Below the pieces are notes generated by a model. The model saw only the letters and a program-made list of their open reading frames with translations. It did no database searches and was not told where the DNA came from. The position numbers and the translations under genes are program-made. From Castellaniella sp. (GTDB lineage Bacteria > Pseudomonadota > Gammaproteobacteria > Burkholderiales > Burkholderiaceae_B), in NCBI RefSeq assembly GCF_004321985.1, contig NZ_SCQN01000045.1, positions 1-62,800 of the forward strand: a stretch of DNA of 62,800 nt. The letters are read 5' to 3'. Shown piece after piece: positions 44,411 through 53,343 of this stretch. How positions within the stretch are numbered: position 1 is the first letter of the stretch; the number at the start of each line of letters is the position of its first letter.

Positions 44411-45502
44411 CTACGCCATGAACTCCTCCAGAACAGCAAAGGAGTGTTCGGGCACGAGCGGTGGCGGCAAGACGGTGTAGGCTGGATCATCATGCTCCTG
44501 CTTCAAGCGGTTTTGCAGCATGCGGCGTGCACGGATCGGCGACTGATCCTGCACCGTGGCAACCCTGGGCACGGTCTGGCCGGTTTCCATGATCCGCCTT
44601 TGCTGCGCTTCCACGATACCCCGGTCTTCGTCGAACGTACGCGAGTTGCCAACTCGCAGTTCTTCAGTCAGATCGGCGTCGTCGATCCTGAAATTACGGA
44701 CCACCGCCCAGAAGTAGTGTGTGCTGGATTCGGTCTCGGGCGTCAGCAGATGCAAGACATGCGCCACCCGTGCCGTCGCACGGTCTTCTTCCACCGGATG
44801 GATTCCAAGGACCGTCAGATTGATCGACGGCACGAGGTGAATGGCCGACTGCCAGCGGTTGATGATGCAGTCATGTCCTATCATCGTGGCAAAGAAGGGT
44901 GGCGCCTCGATCCCGCGCATCTCCCGATGCGCCCGCACCACGCAATCACCCCCCATCGTGACCTTGGGCGTGAAGTTCGCAATGGGTTCCTCTTCGCGCG
45001 TGCCGATGGTGCTTTTGTGTACGTAGGTCTCGTGGCTGAGATCGAGGAGATTGTCGTTCATCAGCGTGTAATTGCAGTCGAAGTGGTGATAGCCGCGTGA
45101 AGCCGCCCACCGATCGCTGGAATTCCAGTGTAGGTCGGGGATCAATTCAGGAGCGGCGAGATCGCGATTCCCCATCCAGATCCAGATAATGCCATGGCGC
45201 TCCACCAGCGGATAGGTGTCGACGCGGGCCGCTTCGGGGATCTTGTCTTGGCCGGGAATGCTCGTGCAGGCGCCATCGCTGGAAAAGCACATCCCGTGGT
45301 AGCCACACTGGATGCAATCGCCAACCCGCTCGCCCAGCGACAGCGGCACCAGCCGGTGGGGACATTCGTCCTTCAGGGCCACATAGCGGCCCGCCAACGA
45401 CCGGTACATGAGAACGGGTTCGCCCAAGATACGTCGTGCGACAAACGGCGCCTCGAAGTCTTTCTCGAAGCCAACGACGTACCAGACATTTCTGACAAAC
45501 AT
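44411..45502 (-). CDS. Rieske non-heme iron oxygenase, VanA-like
   Basis: A 363-residue oxygenase. Rieske ligands: Cys47 and His49 (DECPHR), then Cys66 and His69 (CGYHG). Mononuclear iron ligands: His157 and His162 (LLDLSHETYVH) with Asp154 bridging. The architecture is that of vanillate or phenolic O-demethylases and related aromatic acid oxygenases. Its partner reductase is not in the window. GAGGAG precedes ATG 45502; longer upstream starts are unlikely. It is divergent from a PobR-like activator. Confidence 0.92.
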   Translation of the reverse strand: MFVRNVWYVVGFEKDFEAPFVARRILGEPVLMYRSLAGRYVALKDECPHRLVPLSLGERVGDCIQCGYHGMCFSSDGACTSIPGQDKIPEAARVDTYPLVERHGIIWIWMGNRDLAAPELIPDLHWNSSDRWAASRGYHHFDCNYTLMNDNLLDLSHETYVHKSTIGTREEEPIANFTPKVTMGGDCVVRAHREMRGIEAPPFFATMIGHDCIINRWQSAIHLVPSINLTVLGIHPVEEDRATARVAHVLHLLTPETESSTHYFWAVVRNFRIDDADLTEELRVGNSRTFDEDRGIVEAQQRRIMETGQTVPRVATVQDQSPIRARRMLQNRLKQEHDDPAYTVLPPPLVPEHSFAVLEEFMA

Positions 45503-45701
45503 GAGTGTCTCCTCAACATCAATCTTTTTCGAAGATGCCAGAGGTCTTCCGAACAGGCCGCCACGCCCGATGTCCACTCGACATGTGTGGGGACTGGCCG
45601 GAAAATCCAACGCATCGATCATCAGGATCGCCCGAAACCACACAACTTGACATGAGAATAAGAGACAATTACCTGTACTTTCCGGACAGAGGCCCGCCCC
45701 T

Positions 45702-46610
45702 ATGAACTCAGCCGTCCGCCACGAACGCATTCCGCTTTATTCGCTGTACGGCCAGCTCGACCAAACCGTGCCCTTGGACTTCTTACACCTGGAACCGATC
45801 GAGGCCAGCAACCGCATCTATCAGTGGAACATTCGGCCGCACCGCCACCACGATCTGCATCAGATCATCTGGGTCGCAGACGGCCAGGGAATGGTCGAGC
45901 TCGACACGAGGACGCTATCGCTGCAGGCGCCCGTCCTGATCAACGTGCCCCGAACCGTCGTGCATGGCTTCCAGTGGCTTCCCGGCACCGACGGGCTGGT
46001 TCTGACGCTGGCCGAGAGTTTCATGCAAGATATCCTGCGGATTTCACGGGATCCGTCCACGATGGACATCGTGCGTTCGGCCCATGCGATCTCCGGCGCA
46101 ATTCCGGCCAAGGATCTGGCACGCCTGAAGCTGCTGTTTCGCACACTGGTGGACGAATACATCCACGATCGCGGCGGGCGCATCTCGGCATTGGCCGGCC
46201 TCACCAGCGTCCTGGTCGTCGAAGTCGCCCGCCTGCGGCATCTCAGCGTGCAGCCCACCGAAGATACGCAGGACACCGAATCCTATGCCATCTGCCAACG
46301 CTTTCGCGATCTGGTAGAGACGCATTTCAGGGACCACTGGCCGGTTGCCGACTACGCCGAGCGGCTGGCGACCACGGAACGCAGCCTGCGCCGCCACTGC
46401 CTGGACGGTATAGGACTTTCGCCGCTGCAGATCATCCATCGCCGTCTGTTCATCGAGGCCCGGCGCGAACTGATCTACACCCAGCAGACCACATCCGAAA
46501 TCGCATACCAGCTCGGCTTCAGCGATCCAGCCTATTTCACACGATTCTTTGCCCGCAACAGCGGCAACGCGCCGACGGAGTTTCGGCGCCGGTACCGGCC
46601 CAATTCATAG
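45702..46610 (+). CDS. AraC-family regulator, PobR-like
   Basis: A 302-residue protein: a cupin-type ligand domain (NIRPHRHHDLHQIIWVADG, LQAPVLINVPRTVVHGF) and a C-terminal double HTH (VADYAERLATTERSLRRHCL; TSEIAYQLGFSDPAYFTRFF). PobR-type proteins activate 4-hydroxybenzoate and related aromatic acid genes. It is divergent from the Rieske oxygenase across 199 bp, which also holds a TTGACA at 45647 but no clear -10. Control of that oxygenase is the natural inference. Confidence 0.9.
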   Translation: MNSAVRHERIPLYSLYGQLDQTVPLDFLHLEPIEASNRIYQWNIRPHRHHDLHQIIWVADGQGMVELDTRTLSLQAPVLINVPRTVVHGFQWLPGTDGLVLTLAESFMQDILRISRDPSTMDIVRSAHAISGAIPAKDLARLKLLFRTLVDEYIHDRGGRISALAGLTSVLVVEVARLRHLSVQPTEDTQDTESYAICQRFRDLVETHFRDHWPVADYAERLATTERSLRRHCLDGIGLSPLQIIHRRLFIEARRELIYTQQTTSEIAYQLGFSDPAYFTRFFARNSGNAPTEFRRRYRPNS

Positions 46611-46639: not shown

Positions 46640-47170
46640 CTAAGTCATTCTGGATAGCGTGTCGTCACGCCGTACGATCCGGTGATAGAGGGCTCCGCAT
46701 ACGTGCAGCACGATCAGCGCCAGGATGACCCACGCCACGTAAAAGTGGATCGCCAGGATCGCATCGGCCGCATCGGTCTTGCCAAACGGGCTCCAGATCG
46801 GAATCAGGTCGAACCAAACCAGCGGGTAGCCCTGGGCATTGGTCGTCAGGTACCCCAGGATGGGCTCGACCAGAAGCACCACATAGAACAGCCGATGATT
46901 CAGGATTCCCAGGCGCGCGGCCCACGCCGGCGTCCCGGCGGCGCTGGCAGGAATCTGCGTGCGCCGGCGCACGCTCAGGCGCAGCAACATGAGCAGAAAG
47001 ACCGTGAACCCCAGGTTCACATGCCAGAAGTTCACGACGTCGTAGACGTTGTCCTTCACCAGCTTCTGCAGAAAGCCCAGCGGCAAGACAAAAAACAGCA
47101 GCAGCGCCACCAGCCAATGCAAAGTGACCAGCGCCGGATGATATCGTCGTGCCTGTTGATCCGTGTCCAT
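46640..47170 (-). CDS. Cytochrome b561-family protein
   Basis: A 176-residue four-helix membrane cytochrome. Candidate haem histidines lie in TLHWLVAL (helix 1), NFWHVNLGF (helix 2), AIHFYVAW and LHVCGALYH (last helix). It mediates quinol-linked electron transfer of unknown partner. ATG 47170 has GGGGAA upstream; the longer frame to 47269 lacks such a site. Confidence 0.88.
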   Translation of the reverse strand: MDTDQQARRYHPALVTLHWLVALLLFFVLPLGFLQKLVKDNVYDVVNFWHVNLGFTVFLLMLLRLSVRRRTQIPASAAGTPAWAARLGILNHRLFYVVLLVEPILGYLTTNAQGYPLVWFDLIPIWSPFGKTDAADAILAIHFYVAWVILALIVLHVCGALYHRIVRRDDTLSRMT

Positions 47171-47361
47171 GAGTTCCCCGCCCCATCGCCGAACTGACAA
47201 GACTGCCGTGCCGAAAATTATAGTCTGCCGGTGATCACGCGCCCAATCCCGCGCGGGGCCCGACCCCAAGCCGGCCCTCGGGTATCGGGCTTCGCCAAAG
47301 CGTCATACCATGGAGGCTTGACACACATTCACGACAAGCCCTTCCATCCCCCTGTACGCCC

Positions 47362-48195
47362 ATGACACCGATAGACGCCGAGTCCGCCTGGAAACTCATC
47401 CGCGCCATCCGCCATCACGGCTGCAAGGCACCCGGTGTGCTCAAAGCGGGGCTTCACATCCGGCCGGATGGGCGATGGTCGGCCGACCATGCCGTGACAC
47501 CCGAAGCCGCGCTGCTGCTGGACATGCTGCTGCCGCTTGCCTGCAGCAGTGCATCGCTGGTGATCGCACAAATCGGCCAGAGTCTGGACGGGCGCACTGC
47601 AACGGTGAGCGGACACTCCCGATACGTCACCGGCTACGCCAGCCGGGTTCACCTCCACCGCTTGCGGGCGCTGGTCGATGCAGTGGTGATCGGTGCCAAC
47701 ACTGCCATCCAGGATAACCCACAGCTGACGGTGCGCCATGTCGCGGGCGACAATCCCGTGCGCGTCGTTCTGGATCCCAACGGACGCGTCCCCCACCATT
47801 GCCATGTCTTCACGGACGGGGGACCGCCGACCTGGCACGCTGTCCGCGCGGGTATCGCAGCCGCCCCAGGCGCAAGACGCCTGGCATTGCCCCAGGATGC
47901 GGCAGATATCCCCGGCAGCCTGCTAGCTGGACTGGCGTCACGGGGAATGTCACGCGTGCTGATCGAAGGCGGTGGCACTACGATCTCCCGCTTCATCGAA
48001 GCCGGGTGTGTAGATCGGCTGCACATCGTGGTCGCGCCCTTCATCATCGGATCGGGCAGACCTGGCTTGAGCCTGAGGGAAATCGACACGCTGGACGACG
48101 CCTTACGCCCCCAATGCCGCAGCTTCGCGATCGGCGAGGACCAGCTCTATGATCTGATCCTGGCGCGAGCCGGCAGGCCCAGAACGTCCACATGA
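47362..48195 (+). CDS. RibD-like reductase (dihydrofolate-reductase fold)
   Basis: A 277-residue protein. Residues about 60-270 are a RibD C-terminal-type reductase: IAQIGQSLDGRTAT, GANTAIQDNPQLTVR and VLIEGGGTTISRFIEAG are the NADPH and substrate motifs. There is no deaminase domain; instead about 55 residues of different sequence precede it. So it is not the housekeeping bifunctional RibD. It probably reduces a ribosylamino-pyrimidine, pterin or similar substrate. Its 3' end overlaps the convergent glycosyltransferase gene by 49 bp. Confidence 0.85.
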   Translation: MTPIDAESAWKLIRAIRHHGCKAPGVLKAGLHIRPDGRWSADHAVTPEAALLLDMLLPLACSSASLVIAQIGQSLDGRTATVSGHSRYVTGYASRVHLHRLRALVDAVVIGANTAIQDNPQLTVRHVAGDNPVRVVLDPNGRVPHHCHVFTDGGPPTWHAVRAGIAAAPGARRLALPQDAADIPGSLLAGLASRGMSRVLIEGGGTTISRFIEAGCVDRLHIVVAPFIIGSGRPGLSLREIDTLDDALRPQCRSFAIGEDQLYDLILARAGRPRTST

Positions 48196-50099
48196 CCCAC
48201 CGTCAAGGACAATTCCCCCCGCACCAGCGCGTCAATGCGGCGGGCCGCCCAGGCGGCTATTGCCTTTTCGCTTGAAGGGCTGCGGCGCTGAGCCGCGATC
48301 CGCCAGCCATCGATCAGCGCTCGTCCCAGGTCCGCATCGCCGCGATCCAGATGCCAGTCGCTAGGGCGCACCGACACGTCATAGCCCATGGCCTCCAGAG
48401 CCTTGGCCAGGGTAACGGGCGCCATTGCGCCCAGCGCCGGCCCCAGGCCCTTATCCCGCTGCTGATCCTGCGCCACCCAAGCGCCCACCGAAGCATCCAT
48501 GGGATCATCGTCCGAAAAGCGCACCCGGCCATCGATGCTCAGTGCCATCAGAACGGCCGTCTGCGCCGACGCACAGACCTCACACAAAGCCTTGAGCCAG
48601 TCTGCCGAGACCAGATCGAGCAAGGCGGAGGCGGTCACGACATCGGCTCCCGCCAGCATGGAGGCCGACAGAACCGCGAGATCCCGCACTTCGCAATCAA
48701 CGACATCACCAGCCCGTCCGCCCCGGACGGCCGACAGCAGCCTGGCATCGTGATCCAGCAGACGCCAGTGCAGCGGTTGCGGCAGGCGATCCGACAGATA
48801 GCGCATGTTGGAACCATCCCCCGCACCCAGATCGACCAGCGTCGGCGTCAAAGGCCGGGTGCCGACGGCTTCCTCGCAGATGCCGGGTGACCCGCCCGCC
48901 TGCGGCGCGGCCGCCAGGTCCGTACGTCGCTGCAAATGATCGGACAGCAGGACCGCCAGATCGTGGGCGCGGCTGCGATGATCCACCGGCTCTCGAAGCG
49001 CGAGCCAGGCACTCGCAAAATAGGCGGCCTCTCCCCCCACACAAGGCCCGACTCGATCCAACGCCGCCACGAACCGCATGCCGGCCATCTCCCAGTTCGG
49101 CAGAGAAGCCGCCGCAGTCCTGGCCCCAGCCGACAGAGATTCGCACAGCACCGGATCAGTCAGCACGCGCCGCATCGCGACCGCCAATCCGCTGGCGTCA
49201 CCGGGCAACACCGCGATCCCCGTCTGCGGCGGCAGCGTCTGCGCCAGCGCCCCACCCGTGGTGCTGACGACCGGCAAGCCATGCTGCAGCGCCTCAGCCA
49301 CCACCATGCCATAGCCCTCGTACCAGGACGGCAGCACGAAGAGCCGGGCATGGGCATACGCATGCTCCAGCGCTTCAGGCGCCAGGATGCCCCGTAGGCG
49401 CACACGGTCTCCCAGCCCGTGGCGGGCAATTTCTCCGAGCACGGCTCGCGTGCACGCCGGATCCCGCTGCGCATCGCCGACGCAGTCACAGGACCAATCC
49501 AGATCCAGCAGTTGTGACAGCGCCTGCACCAGCACCTCATGGCCCTTGCGGGGAACCAGCGTGGCTACACAAAGAATGGACGGCGGCGCGTGCTTCCGGC
49601 TGCCCAGGGACTCCAGGCCCGCCACAGGATCCACGCCGGGCTCCACGACGTCGATGGCGGATTCGAGGACGCCATAGACGTCCGCCAGGCGGCGCGCAGT
49701 GAAGGGACTGCTCACGACGACGCGCGCCACCGCGGCAAGCGCCTGCCGCTCTGTCTCGCGATACCGTGCCGCCAACTCGGCATCCAGGCCGACTTCGTCC
49801 GCCAGCGGATGATGGATCAGGGCCACCAGCCGCAACCGCCCGGCGTGCCTGACCAGGACCTGCGGCAACCCACCCGACACCAGGCCATCCAGGATGACGC
49901 ACGCGTCATCCTTGCACCGGGCCAATGCACTGTCCAGCGCATCCGCCGATTCACCACTCGCACCCGGAAAGGTGCCGGCCAGCTCGATCACTTCGACGGG
50001 TCGGCCCGATCGCCGCAGCGCCTCGACCATCCGCGCATCGTAGCGGTAGCCGCCCGTCACCTGGCGGATATCACCCGCCACGACGAAATAGCGCTTCAC
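48147..50099 (-). CDS. Glycosyltransferase family 4 - SAM methyltransferase fusion
   Basis: A 650-residue two-domain protein. Residues 1-355 form a GT-B glycosyltransferase: TGGYRYDARMVEALRR, IHHPLADE, CVATLVPRKGHEVLVQAL, and an E-x7-E motif near 261-269 (SWYEGYGMVVAEALQHGLPV). Residues about 420-640 form a Rossmann methyltransferase with VDLGAGDGSNMRYL at 422-435. GTG start 50099 overlaps the upstream PTPS-like stop by 4 bp. The sugar donor and acceptor are unknown; coupling to the PTPS-like protein suggests a pterin-like or other soluble acceptor. Confidence 0.85.
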   Translation of the reverse strand: MKRYFVVAGDIRQVTGGYRYDARMVEALRRSGRPVEVIELAGTFPGASGESADALDSALARCKDDACVILDGLVSGGLPQVLVRHAGRLRLVALIHHPLADEVGLDAELAARYRETERQALAAVARVVVSSPFTARRLADVYGVLESAIDVVEPGVDPVAGLESLGSRKHAPPSILCVATLVPRKGHEVLVQALSQLLDLDWSCDCVGDAQRDPACTRAVLGEIARHGLGDRVRLRGILAPEALEHAYAHARLFVLPSWYEGYGMVVAEALQHGLPVVSTTGGALAQTLPPQTGIAVLPGDASGLAVAMRRVLTDPVLCESLSAGARTAAASLPNWEMAGMRFVAALDRVGPCVGGEAAYFASAWLALREPVDHRSRAHDLAVLLSDHLQRRTDLAAAPQAGGSPGICEEAVGTRPLTPTLVDLGAGDGSNMRYLSDRLPQPLHWRLLDHDARLLSAVRGGRAGDVVDCEVRDLAVLSASMLAGADVVTASALLDLVSADWLKALCEVCASAQTAVLMALSIDGRVRFSDDDPMDASVGAWVAQDQQRDKGLGPALGAMAPVTLAKALEAMGYDVSVRPSDWHLDRGDADLGRALIDGWRIAAQRRSPSSEKAIAAWAARRIDALVRGELSLTVGHVDVLGLPARARIRS

Positions 50100-50497
50100 T
50101 GCAGATCCGCTTCGTAGGCTGCCCAGGCAAACGGCGACTCGTGCAACACGACCGACAATCGGACAAGACCCTGGGCGCCCGTCCCCAGGCGCCCGCTGCG
50201 GATCGCCTGGCGCACCCGGTCGAACACCACGCGTGCCATGAACTCGGTGGTGGTGTTGTGACCTGCCAGATCCGGCAGATCATCGAGATTGCGCAAATTG
50301 AATTCAACCAGAATTTCGCCCAGCACCGAACGGGCCGCGCCGATATCGACCACCAGGCCATCGGCGTCCAGTGCCGGCCGCCCGAACGTCACATCGACCA
50401 CATAGGTCGCGCCGTGCAGGTTCTGGGCCGGGCCAAAGGCAGCTCCCGTGAAACTGTGTGCGATCATCATCTGGTCGCGAACCGTCAAGCTGTACAT
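50096..50497 (-). CDS. PTPS/QueD-fold protein lacking canonical catalytic residues
   Basis: A 133-residue T-fold protein, usually labelled 6-carboxytetrahydropterin synthase. His14 (IAHSF) and His28 (NLHGA) fit two zinc ligands. The third, His33 of E. coli QueD, is Ala30; the catalytic Cys27 position is Ala24; the Asp-His pair (LDHxxLND) reads FNLRNLDD. Only the late Glu (Glu120, LHES) remains. It is therefore unlikely to perform the standard QueD reaction. Start and stop are each coupled to neighbours (TGATG, GTGA). Confidence 0.8.
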   Translation of the reverse strand: MYSLTVRDQMMIAHSFTGAAFGPAQNLHGATYVVDVTFGRPALDADGLVVDIGAARSVLGEILVEFNLRNLDDLPDLAGHNTTTEFMARVVFDRVRQAIRSGRLGTGAQGLVRLSVVLHESPFAWAAYEADLQ

Positions 50498-51483
50498 CAC
50501 ACTTCCCGAAGATAAGAAACCCGCTGGCACAGGGTCCGGTCGACCGGATCCGCCAGCCGGGTAAAGGCAGCCGGCAAGGCCTCGAATGATATATCCGGCG
50601 CAAACAGCACATCCAGACGTGGATCGGCACACAGCGAAACCGCCAGCGCGAGCCGCCTGGCATGATCCCAGCGCGCGGCCCGGGCAGGCGCCACAGTCCC
50701 GACCTGGCTCGCCCGCAGCGTCAGGCGCTGCGAGTGAAAGCTCCCGCCCAGCGCCACCGTCGCGGGGCGCGCCCCGAACCAGCTCAGCTCGATGATCTCG
50801 GCCTCCCGGCCCGCCAGCGACAACGCGGTGTTCAGGCCCGCCGTGCTGGCGCTCGCGTGGAACACCAGATCGCGGCCAGCCGCCGCATTCTGCGGGACGG
50901 CAAAATCCACCCCCAGCGCCCGCGCAACCAGAGCGCGGTCCGCGTCGATGTCCACGAGTTCCACCCGCACCCCTGGCACCCGTGAGCACAGGCTCGCCAC
51001 CAGACAACCCAACACACCAGCGCCCACAATGCTGATCCTGTCCCCCACCCGGGGAGCCGCATCCCACAAGGCGTTGACCGCCGTCTCCATGTTGGCGGCC
51101 AGCACGGCCCGCCCAGGCTCTACCGACTCAGGCACAGCCACCACGGCAGTTTGCGGCACGACATAGGCCGTCTGATGTGGGTACAAACAGAAAACGGTAC
51201 GGCCCAGCCATGCGGGAGGACCCGCCTCGACCACGCCGACGCTCGCATAACCGTACTTGACCGCACTCGGCAGGGTCCCCGCCTGGAAGGGTGCCCGCAT
51301 GCGGGCGTATTCAGTTTCCGGGACCTCCCCACGATAGACCAGCGTCTCCGTCCCGCGGCTGACGGCGGAATAATGGGTTCGGACCCTCAGGTCCTGCGGG
51401 CCGCACTCGGGCAACAGCTCGTCTCGAATCGACGCATGCCGGGGTGGCTCCAGCCAAAGTGCCCGTGCAATCACCGGCTTCAT
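50497..51483 (-). CDS. Medium-chain dehydrogenase/reductase without the usual zinc site
   Basis: A 328-residue MDR protein: GroES-like N-terminal part, then a Rossmann NAD(P) site (ISIVGAGVLGCLVASL, VELVDIDADRA). The catalytic zinc cysteine position of alcohol dehydrogenases (GICGTD) reads AVSRGTE and the GHE motif is KYGYASVG, so no catalytic zinc is expected; this resembles BchC-type members. It is the first gene of the minus-strand trio and its stop overlaps the PTPS-like start (TGATG). ATG 51483 is preferred over the upstream start at 51543. Confidence 0.82.
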   Translation of the reverse strand: MKPVIARALWLEPPRHASIRDELLPECGPQDLRVRTHYSAVSRGTETLVYRGEVPETEYARMRAPFQAGTLPSAVKYGYASVGVVEAGPPAWLGRTVFCLYPHQTAYVVPQTAVVAVPESVEPGRAVLAANMETAVNALWDAAPRVGDRISIVGAGVLGCLVASLCSRVPGVRVELVDIDADRALVARALGVDFAVPQNAAAGRDLVFHASASTAGLNTALSLAGREAEIIELSWFGARPATVALGGSFHSQRLTLRASQVGTVAPARAARWDHARRLALAVSLCADPRLDVLFAPDISFEALPAAFTRLADPVDRTLCQRVSYLREV

Positions 51484-51588
51484 CCCGCATCGCTCCCATG
51501 AACGCGAACCCCCACCATGATAAGCGCCATTGGCCACGGACACGATGCGGAAGGACTAGCATGTCAGTCATCCACCAGGACACTGAAC

Positions 51589-53343
51589 ATGCATGAGGCC
51601 ATCCGGCGAAGACGACGTATTTTTCTGGCCCTGAATGCCGTCACGCTGGCGTCATTCACCGCCATGATGCTGGGGCTCATCATCGGTGGGGGCATGACCA
51701 TTTCCGAATGGCTGATAGGGGTGTGCTTCCTGCTCACCATCCCCTATGTGGTGCTGGGCTTCTGGAACTCGGCCATCGGCCTCTGGCTGCTGCATCGACG
51801 CCCGGATGTGATCCACAGCATGCCCGGCGTGGCCGAGATCCTGGATCCCACACCACCCCCGCTGCTGGACTGCCGCGTGGTGCTGATCCTGACGCTGCGC
51901 AACGAACCACCCGCTCCCATTTTCGAGCGTCTGGAACGCATGCGGGCATCGCTGCTGGCCACCGGCCAGCTCGGACGTTTCTGCTTCACTGTCCTGAGCG
52001 ACAGCGACAAGCCTGACATCCTGGAAGCAGAGACCGCGGCCTTCTCTGGCTTCCTGGCCCACCGCACCGAGGACGAACCGCCGCCGCTCCACCGGCACCG
52101 TCCACACAACACCGGCTACAAGGCCGGCAACATCGCCGAGTTCCTGGAGGTACGCGGGTTCGAGTTCGACTATTTCGTGCCGCTGGATTCCGACAGCCTC
52201 ATCGCCGGCGGGACGCTGATCCGGATGGTGGCTGCCATGCAGCGGCACCCGGAGATCGGCATTCTGCAAAGCCTGGTCGTCGGCATGCCCAGCTCCAGCC
52301 GCTTCACCCGCGTGTTCCAGTTCGGCATGCGCCATGGCATGCGGGTCTTTACGACCGGCGCTGCCTGGTGGACCGCTGACTGTGGCAGCTACTGGGGGCA
52401 CAACGCCGTGGTGCGGTTGGCCCCGTTCCACCAGCACTGCCGCCTGCCGCAACTGCCTGGCTCACCGCCCTTCGGCGGAGCCGTCCTGAGCCACGACCAG
52501 CTCGAGGCGGTCTTCATCCGCCGGGCGGGTTTCGAAGTTCGCGTCATCCCGGTCGAATCGGACAGTTTCGAAATCAACCCGCCCACCCTGCTGGACTTCA
52601 TCCGTCGCGAACTGCGCTGGACCCAGGGGAACATGCAGTACTTCCGCTTTCTGGGCGCACCGGATCTCAAGCCCGTCAGCCGCATCCAATTGTGCATCGC
52701 CATCGGCATGTACCTGGCCCAGGCCGCGTGGATCCTGATGATCGCCGTGTCCTGCATCGGTTCCATGATCGGCAACTTCCGCTTCCAGGACCTGACGCTG
52801 GGGATGACGCTGTTCGTCGGCGTGTTCGTGCTGTCCGTTGCGCCCAAGTTCTTTGGTGCCATGGACGTCTGGCTGTCCAGGGGAGGTCCTACCCGGTACG
52901 GCGGCCTGGGCGTCTTCAGCCTGTCGGTGCTGGTGGAACTGGTGGCCTCCACGCTGATGGCCCCCATCGTGGCAATGTCGGTCACCCTCTTCCTGATCGG
53001 GCTGCTGTTCGGCAAAAGTGTGTACTGGGGCGGCCAGAACCGCGACCGTCTGGGAGTCGCCTGGCACACTGCCGCACGCGCCCTGGCGCCGCACACCCTG
53101 GCCGGGCTGGCTCTGGCCACCGCGTTCTGGCAGCTCGGCGGCCTCACGGCCGTCCTCTGGGGGCTCCCCATCATCACCGGATGGGTGCTGGCCATCCCCT
53201 ATACCGTCTTCAGCGCAGGGCCGGCGGCAACCCGCAGACGGCTGTTCTGCATTCCGGAAGAGGTGCAGACCCCCGCGGTGTTGATCACCAGCCGCCGCGA
53301 CGGGCCCATGGCTTCAGCCGGACCCTCGGCACAACGGCCCTGA
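51589..53343 (+). CDS. OpgH/MdoH-like membrane glycosyltransferase (GT2), short form
   Basis: A 584-residue protein with two N-terminal helices, a processive GT2 domain (LSDSDKPD near 137, VPLDSDSL near 199, LSHDQLEA and RRELRWTQGNMQYF near 339) and about five C-terminal helices. Family members polymerise glucose from UDP-glucose into periplasmic glucans. E. coli OpgH is about 847 residues; this one lacks the long terminal extensions, and no opgG is adjacent. It is divergent from the MDR gene across 105 bp. It may extend or export the product of the neighbouring cluster, or work alone. Confidence 0.85.
   Translation: MHEAIRRRRRIFLALNAVTLASFTAMMLGLIIGGGMTISEWLIGVCFLLTIPYVVLGFWNSAIGLWLLHRRPDVIHSMPGVAEILDPTPPPLLDCRVVLILTLRNEPPAPIFERLERMRASLLATGQLGRFCFTVLSDSDKPDILEAETAAFSGFLAHRTEDEPPPLHRHRPHNTGYKAGNIAEFLEVRGFEFDYFVPLDSDSLIAGGTLIRMVAAMQRHPEIGILQSLVVGMPSSSRFTRVFQFGMRHGMRVFTTGAAWWTADCGSYWGHNAVVRLAPFHQHCRLPQLPGSPPFGGAVLSHDQLEAVFIRRAGFEVRVIPVESDSFEINPPTLLDFIRRELRWTQGNMQYFRFLGAPDLKPVSRIQLCIAIGMYLAQAAWILMIAVSCIGSMIGNFRFQDLTLGMTLFVGVFVLSVAPKFFGAMDVWLSRGGPTRYGGLGVFSLSVLVELVASTLMAPIVAMSVTLFLIGLLFGKSVYWGGQNRDRLGVAWHTAARALAPHTLAGLALATAFWQLGGLTAVLWGLPIITGWVLAIPYTVFSAGPAATRRRLFCIPEEVQTPAVLITSRRDGPMASAGPSAQRP

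Follow-up and report, generated by a model that had tools for sequence, protein, structure and literature searches.

A 62,800-nucleotide stretch of Castellaniella sp. DNA (NCBI RefSeq assembly GCF_004321985.1, contig NZ_SCQN01000045.1, positions 1 to 62,800; hereafter the window) carries at 47362-53343 five adjoining genes. They encode a reductase with a RibD_C domain, a fusion of a family 4 glycosyltransferase (GT4) with a methyltransferase (MT), a PTPS-fold protein, a medium-chain dehydrogenase (MDR) and an OpgH-type membrane glycosyltransferase. We find that this locus represents a widespread pathway, and that its type of OpgH occurs, in the genomes sampled, only alongside the pathway marked by PTPS subfamily IV (PTPS-IV). 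Comparison of loci shows that a core of MDR, PTPS, GT4 and MT, mostly with RibD_C, is inherited together and that two largely mutually exclusive membrane modules accompany it. In our favoured reading the locus would be dedicated to biosynthesis and anchoring, such that a GTP-derived, pterin-like compound is made, glycosylated, methylated and, at the inner membrane, anchored or exported; both the product and its chemistry we infer, and we give this reading about an even chance.

The original prediction had taken the genes for parts of a single pathway, and their co-occurrence elsewhere bears this out; a failure to co-occur, which it named as a refutation, is contradicted. A PTPS-IV profile run against an even sample of 398 genomes from the window's phylum (Pseudomonadota) gave strong matches (≥173 bits) in 27 genomes, among them the window's own, and weak matches (∼60 bits) in two more. 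Within ∼8 kb of the 26 strong PTPS-seeded loci we found the MDR in 26/26, GT4 in 25/26, MT in 24/26, RibD_C in 22/26 and GTP cyclohydrolase II (GCH II) in 11/26, together with a CDP-alcohol phosphatidyltransferase at 12, OpgH at 10 (two of classical type), cytochrome b561 at 7 and YceI at 4. Recurring at every one of these loci, the MDR-PTPS linkage exceeds chance. None of these partner genes lay within ∼8 kb of the two weak matches. The converse search of genome contigs was seeded with the MDR and the best-scoring 80 of 392 relatives were kept, so that the MDR is present by construction; some of these contigs end within the locus. Several of the neighbour clusters that a script picked out proved to be shadow ORFs and were set aside on inspection. 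PTPS and GT4 each accompany the MDR at 80/80 loci, MT at 75/80 and RibD_C at 70/80, with GCH II at 27/80 and a creatininase-family protein at 24/80. Membrane and envelope genes are frequent: CDP-alcohol phosphatidyltransferase (52/80), LPG_synthase_TM (27/80), sulfatase-like protein (24/80; two that were scanned score just below the Pfam cut-off and a third has no match), YceI (22/80), OpgH (13/80, two of them weak) and b561 (6/80). Loci from different sources may share species, and the p values given throughout ignore kinship.

The core is also carried on plasmids. Eight of 24 PTPS-matching plasmid records were viewed, and six have MDR, PTPS, GT4 and MT, namely those of Streptomyces fungicidicus, Microbacterium, Methylosinus, Rhizobium, Thiodictyon and Haloarcula (in the last, the gene at the MT position is annotated as hypothetical). 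A phage origin was rejected, no match being found among phages at E 1e-5. No PTPS protein was found in the nine other genomes of the window's genus (two of them <90% complete), a strong MDR match (E below 1e-90) occurs in 14/151 genomes of its family, and in the MDR tree the window protein lies nearest to Salinisphaera (the kindred contig L003 was left out); the window copy may therefore have been acquired by transfer. The tree is a quick LG+G4 reconstruction with 44/122 inner branches open and two long rows. A second methyltransferase, of the FkbM family, is linked in 9/101 and 8/28 loci (L126:5151-5906, L154, L155 and others).

The PTPS protein belongs to PTPS-IV. This subfamily of COG0720 was defined by an FGPAQ signature and by GCH II (PF00925) and RibD_C as neighbours, according to the accessible part of the account (PMC5445326). 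Our alignment of 94 proteins carries this signature, with F21, G22, P23 and A24 in 94/94 and Q25 in 89/94. In place of the QueD motif CxxxHGH it reads AQxLHGA: the position of the catalytic Cys is Ala in 94/94, and HGH has become HGA in 93/94, with one zinc His replaced by Ala. E120 is invariant (94/94). Alignment columns were assigned to what we take to be the E. coli QueD numbering, and the conserved Glu is presumably the residue that holds the pterin ring. The model of the window protein (pLDDT 94.8) superposes on 3d7j (SCO6650), the closest solved structure, with a TM score of 0.94, compared with ∼0.74 for QueD; SCO6650 has the same motif and is 57% identical over the fold alignment. It is reportedly devoid of zinc and of the catalytic triad, with the pterin-binding residues kept. 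PTPS-IV has thus retained the fold and the ring-binding residue and has probably lost the known chemistry. The PTPS on the Haloarcula plasmid (L125:9001-9375) keeps an HSH motif and may be a zinc-keeping form.

The RibD_C protein has no deaminase domain match in Pfam, and its best solved match, by profile and by fold, is MthRED (6p8c), followed by MjRED and RibG-type reductases. Like MthRED and MjRED (2azn), which are 2,5-diamino-6-ribosylamino-4(3H)-pyrimidinone 5'-phosphate reductases of the archaeal/fungal type, it lacks the deaminase domain; it differs from the known reductases by an N-terminal extension of ∼66 residues and by being embedded in this locus. Besides the best-scoring further RibD_C protein on contig C57, the window genome encodes two others (C77:46375-46929 and C42:4672-5265). 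The MDR has no Pfam match above cut-off. Its best NCBIfam match is BchC (TIGR01202), with a score of 49.1 bits far under the 291.25 bits set for that family. Mainly the Rossmann part aligns to solved zinc enzymes, and this part resembles polyol dehydrogenases, among other MDR enzymes. No invariant or nearly invariant Cys precedes C319 in the MDR alignment, so that at what we take to be the ligand positions the classical Cys/His/Cys catalytic zinc set is missing. The GT4 half of the fusion is nearest to Tll1590, PimB' and MshA among PDB structures. A homologue of the MT half, in locus L002, matches Pfam Methyltransf_12/25 just under the cut-off. Most relatives encode GT4 and MT separately; a single open frame holds both in the window, L053 and L074, and the two lie in the same stop-to-stop frame in L130, L134, L135, L140, L141 and L142.

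The cyclohydrolase linked to the core is GCH II, of the riboflavin-type branch, not GCH I; neither GCH I nor sepiapterin reductase was noticed in the locus, where no family search for them was made. Three Cys residues, matched to 2bz0, are invariant in 22 aligned proteins. The equivalent of what we take to be Tyr105 of E. coli RibA is Tyr in 37/39 (by pattern), the others having Met (Streptomyces L122) or Ile (L075). Exchange of Tyr105 for Met makes GCH II stop at FAPy, SCO6655 is said to make this compound, and the archaeal deformylase ArfB belongs to the creatininase family. A FAPy route for all loci was rejected on the retention of the Tyr105 equivalent, and an ArfB-like role of the creatininase-family protein is for the same reason unsupported in most loci. 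On the Streptomyces plasmid a creatininase-family gene adjoins the GCH II with Met (L122:13392-14135).

We counted the membrane modules over 129 loci (80 + 12 + the window + 8 + 28), calling OpgH at E below 1e-40. At least one of the two modules is present in 101: 31 have OpgH without CDP-alcohol phosphatidyltransferase, 68 show the converse and 2 have both, which leaves 28 with neither (Fisher p 4e-11); loci L070 and L074, with weak OpgH matches at the locus end, were counted as CDP type. The CDP-alcohol phosphatidyltransferase often comes with LPG_TM, sulfatase-like and YceI proteins, and for OpgH cytochrome b561 or a glucan-type ABC exporter is a frequent companion. The locus of Methylosinus trichosporium OB3b (L124) is of the OpgH type and that of Variovorax paradoxus (L051) of the CDP type. 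On the MDR tree a locus switched module state seven times or more, and the split is therefore not one ancient event.

OpgH itself appears to be specialized. The window protein scores 639 bits against NF003963 (cut-off 884) and lies above the cut-offs of NF003958 and NF003962, which places it in the MdoH/OpgH family of osmoregulated periplasmic glucan (OPG) synthases; motifs that we take to be DxD-like and RRxLRW-like are visible. Locus OpgHs and two unlinked ones nevertheless group as one clade (31 rows; SH-aLRT 100; branch 0.9), from which the 22 further OpgHs of the sample, that of E. coli included, are separate. This quick tree contains 29 of the 31 OpgH-only loci (L003 and L042 are out) and four long rows, one of them the window's. 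The clade does not include the OpgHs of the two loci with both modules (L130, L139), and in the stretch of L139 there is also a match to OpgG. OpgG (MdoG), which is required for OPG synthesis, was absent from 22/22 genomes with linked OpgH that were searched for it, the window's own included. Classical OPG synthesis by the locus OpgH was rejected on this absence and on the tree. In the 398-genome sample, own genome excluded, ten OpgHs match the window protein with >400 bits, the next match having 303 bits. All ten occur in PTPS-IV genomes (26/397 positive; hypergeometric p 2e-13), two of them on another contig than the PTPS-IV gene (G545, G433). The locus enzyme thus differs from the family's glucan synthases in its separate clade, in lacking OpgG and in its tie to PTPS-IV.

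In 11 of 12 loci from the window's family (L109-L113 and L115-L120) an ABC exporter stands beside OpgH; the twelfth, L114, has the CDP-alcohol phosphatidyltransferase module instead. The exporters of L109, L112, L115 and L117 were scanned, and 4/4 pass the cut-off of the NCBIfam glucan ABC transporter NF010178, which suggests a glucan for the OpgH type. The arrangement recalls ChvA/NdvA-type cyclic glucan export, with which it shares the glucan ABC transporter; here the partners of the exporter are an enzyme of the OpgH clade and the core around PTPS. The window has no glucan-type exporter beside its own OpgH.

Two neighbours that hint at redox chemistry, cytochrome b561 and YceI, are over-represented. 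Cytochrome b561 lies near 7/26 PTPS-seeded loci, all seven Pfam-confirmed, where 0.49 would be expected from a density of 115 copies per 99.1 Mb, taken from 20 genomes that were partly chosen for OpgH loci. It is near 6/80 MDR-seeded loci (1.4 expected; p 0.004). The b561 frame opens right after the RibD_C stop codon in L154, lies between MT and RibD_C in Thiodictyon and adjoins RibD_C in Rhizobium SL42. A b561-like match in L027 was not counted, being only a fragment whose frame is broken and which has no match in Pfam; at L027:1-873, on the contig edge of a metagenome bin, it lies in the same open frame as part of an OpgH, and the genes look broken or misassembled. YceI is near 22/80 MDR-seeded loci, many of them Variovorax kin, against 0.57 expected, a figure that is if anything too high (the density set is enriched for YceI loci), and near 4/26 PTPS-seeded loci, three from one genus. 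In the 101-locus set 21/22 loci with YceI are of the CDP type, and b561 is found mostly with the OpgH type (in the same set, and in six of the seven PTPS-seeded cases).

These data can be assembled into a putative pathway. GCH II, encoded in the locus of some relatives and presumably supplied here by a housekeeping copy, would open GTP to yield 2,5-diamino-6-ribosylamino-pyrimidinone phosphate, the ribose of which would be reduced to ribityl by the RibD_C-only protein. The MDR may then oxidize a side-chain hydroxyl, and a metal-free PTPS-IV would bind the 2-amino-4-oxo ring and close or rearrange the intermediate, giving a pterin-like compound in reduced form. The GT4 half would add a sugar and the MT half a methyl group; from the enzyme families, glycosylation and methylation of the product are plausible. 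In the window the OpgH-clade glycosyltransferase could join the compound, on the periplasmic face of the inner membrane, to a glycan or lipid, a task that elsewhere may fall to the CDP-alcohol phosphatidyltransferase with or without the LPG_TM protein, and cytochrome b561 may keep the periplasm-facing compound reduced. We infer the order of steps, the redox role and the idea that PTPS-IV works as a cyclase or isomerase without metal; a pterin as product is suggested by the PTPS fold and one conserved Glu. The full form of this scheme, a periplasm-facing, membrane-bound reduced pterin, glycosylated, methylated and recharged by b561, which serves as a phospholipid head group in the CDP-alcohol phosphatidyltransferase type or is glucan-linked in the OpgH type, we consider unlikely. 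If it were true, the compound would represent a novel type of redox carrier in the envelope. Its synthesis would bypass GCH I, with reduction by RibD_C, oxidation by the MDR and a PTPS free of metal standing in for the Amadori step.

Several observations weigh against a biosynthesis-and-anchoring locus of this kind. GCH II is not within the window and lies near only 39/101 loci beyond the 11/26 PTPS-seeded ones, and the window genome holds three other RibD_C proteins. Neither membrane module is present in 28/129 loci, some of which are on contigs that end early; for two loci without a linked module an OpgH is found on another contig (G545, G433). Streptomyces locus L128 lacks GT4, and in L129 of Streptomyces anthocyanicus PTPS-IV stands alone, with none of its partners. 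The haloarchaeal relative from Haloarcula has a similar context around a PTPS with HSH and without FGPAQ. A glucan exporter beside OpgH is also compatible with plain glucan synthesis, and the roles of b561 and YceI could lie with functions encoded nearby.

An offshoot of riboflavin or F420 synthesis, in which PTPS-IV acts on a ribityl-pyrimidine and the product is a ribityl-pyrimidine or a flavin- or deazaflavin-like compound rather than a pterin, is a real if minor possibility. It would account for the linked GCH II, RibD_C and, in some loci, creatininase-family protein, and an F420-dependent oxidoreductase is annotated near one Streptomyces plasmid locus. PTPS-IV is also stated, as an unpublished result, to be involved in F420 synthesis, according to the accessible text of PMC5041015. 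The conserved Glu, by contrast, suits a 2-amino-4-oxo ring, and when conserved neighbour clusters were inspected by eye, with no family search made, no condensation enzyme for F420 or flavin was noticed. The presence of the locus in Variovorax, Chromohalobacter and Salinisphaera, genera not suggestive of F420, also argues against this route. Alternatively, the product may be a modified lipid head group or glycan substituent with a structural role in surface chemistry or osmotic protection and without redox function. CDP-alcohol phosphatidyltransferase, LPG_TM, sulfatase-like and OpgH-clade proteins are all envelope enzymes, the OpgH-type loci of the window's family have a glucan-type exporter, and the GT4 half matches solved structures of the PimB' and MshA type; such envelope decoration taken alone leaves the b561 linkage (7/26 against 0.49) unexplained, and we regard it as improbable.

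We consider it very improbable that the core makes a soluble glycoside of a pterin, such as cyanopterin or limipterin, while OpgH, with the glucan exporter where there is one, belongs to an unrelated glucan system. Pteridine glycosyltransferases do exist in cyanobacteria and Chlorobium, as the available text of PMC5683033 states, and the exporters of the four scanned loci score as glucan ABC transporters. The cyanopterin and Chlorobium pathways share with our locus a pterin-type enzyme beside a GT-B glycosyltransferase; they are unlike it in that the locus has the GCH II branch and an added membrane module. An unrelated glucan system is moreover at odds with the lack of OpgG in 22/22 genomes and with an OpgH clade of its own that tracks PTPS-IV in 10/10 cases, the two unlinked ones among them. 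Queuosine or 7-deazapurine synthesis, with the PTPS acting as QueD, was already dismissed in the original prediction, and we find it scarcely credible. The protein is the only PTPS-family member of the genome and QueC is encoded elsewhere in it; yet its score against QueD (TIGR03367) is 39.8 bits where the cut-off is 89.25, the catalytic Cys and one zinc His are missing, and the nine other genomes of the genus lack any PTPS protein. A queuosine role was rejected on motif, score and genus distribution. QueC adjoins a gene that scores as a 7-cyano-7-deazaguanine/queuosine-precursor transporter (329.9 bits, cut-off 252; L108:7582-8999 on contig C19), and in a genome without a QueD-type PTPS this pair looks like precursor salvage.

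The pathway had been described in the original prediction as apparently undescribed, which holds in part. The PTPS-IV subfamily, the structure 3d7j and the neighbourhood of GCH II and RibD_C are already published, whereas MDR, GT4, MT and the membrane modules are not named as neighbours in the accessible part of PMC5445326. Literature searches, in which most subscription papers remained uncovered, gave no description of the core as a whole, of the choice between membrane modules, of the dedicated OpgH clade or of the b561/YceI link. Our comparison supplies PTPS-IV with a complete set of partner genes, with a choice of two membrane modules and with an OpgH clade of its own that accompanies it in the genomes sampled. 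The kind of module, lipid or glycan, predicts where the product should be sought, in the membrane lipid extract or in the glycan fraction. Two annotations that have spread by homology are called into question, '6-carboxytetrahydropterin synthase' and 'glucans biosynthesis glucosyltransferase MdoH'. The b561 gene at 46640-47269, the OpgH clade, the CDP-alcohol phosphatidyltransferase module and the b561, YceI and glucan-exporter partners had not been mentioned in the original prediction.

All five genes are present in the window, complete and in the predicted order (Table 1), and the coupling proposed for the minus-strand run of MDR, PTPS and GT4-MT fusion was confirmed: TGATG at 50499-50495 joins the MDR stop to the PTPS start and GTGA at 50099-50096 the PTPS stop to the GT4 start. 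The RibD_C and fusion frames converge with a 49-base overlap. OpgH diverges from the MDR gene, and its homology to relatives begins near the ATG at 51589; from this layout, the intergenic stretch between the two is likely a shared regulatory region. The cytochrome b561 encoded next to RibD_C is a probable membrane redox partner.

Table 1. Features of the PTPS-IV locus and its b561 neighbour (window coordinates).
Feature	Coordinates	Strand	Evidence
Cytochrome b561 (PF01292)	46640..47269	-	Pfam E 4.7e-24; adjoins RibD_C
RibD_C-only reductase (diaminopyrimidine 5'-phosphate reductase type)	47362..48195	+	PF01872 E 7e-39, residues 67-241
GT4-methyltransferase fusion	48147-50099	-	GT4 by Pfam; MT half by homology to separate MT genes
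Class I S-adenosylmethionine-dependent methyltransferase half of fusion	48147..49019	-	phmmer to separate MT genes in relatives
GT4 half of fusion	49020..50099	-	PF13692/PF00534; GTG start, GTGA overlap
PTPS-IV subfamily protein (FGPAQ...LHGAT)	50096..50497	-	PF01242 E 6e-22; alignment of 94
MDR dehydrogenase without conserved zinc ligands	50497..51483	-	TGATG overlap with PTPS
Divergent intergenic stretch, MDR-PTPS-GT4/MT run versus OpgH	51484..51588	.	Gene layout
OpgH-clade membrane glycosyltransferase	51589..53343 (open reading frame opens 51517)	+	NCBIfam MdoH 639 bits

Beside the locus, at 44411-46610 of the window, lie genes for a VanA-type Rieske oxygenase and a divergent AraC-family regulator, which are catabolic and apparently unrelated.

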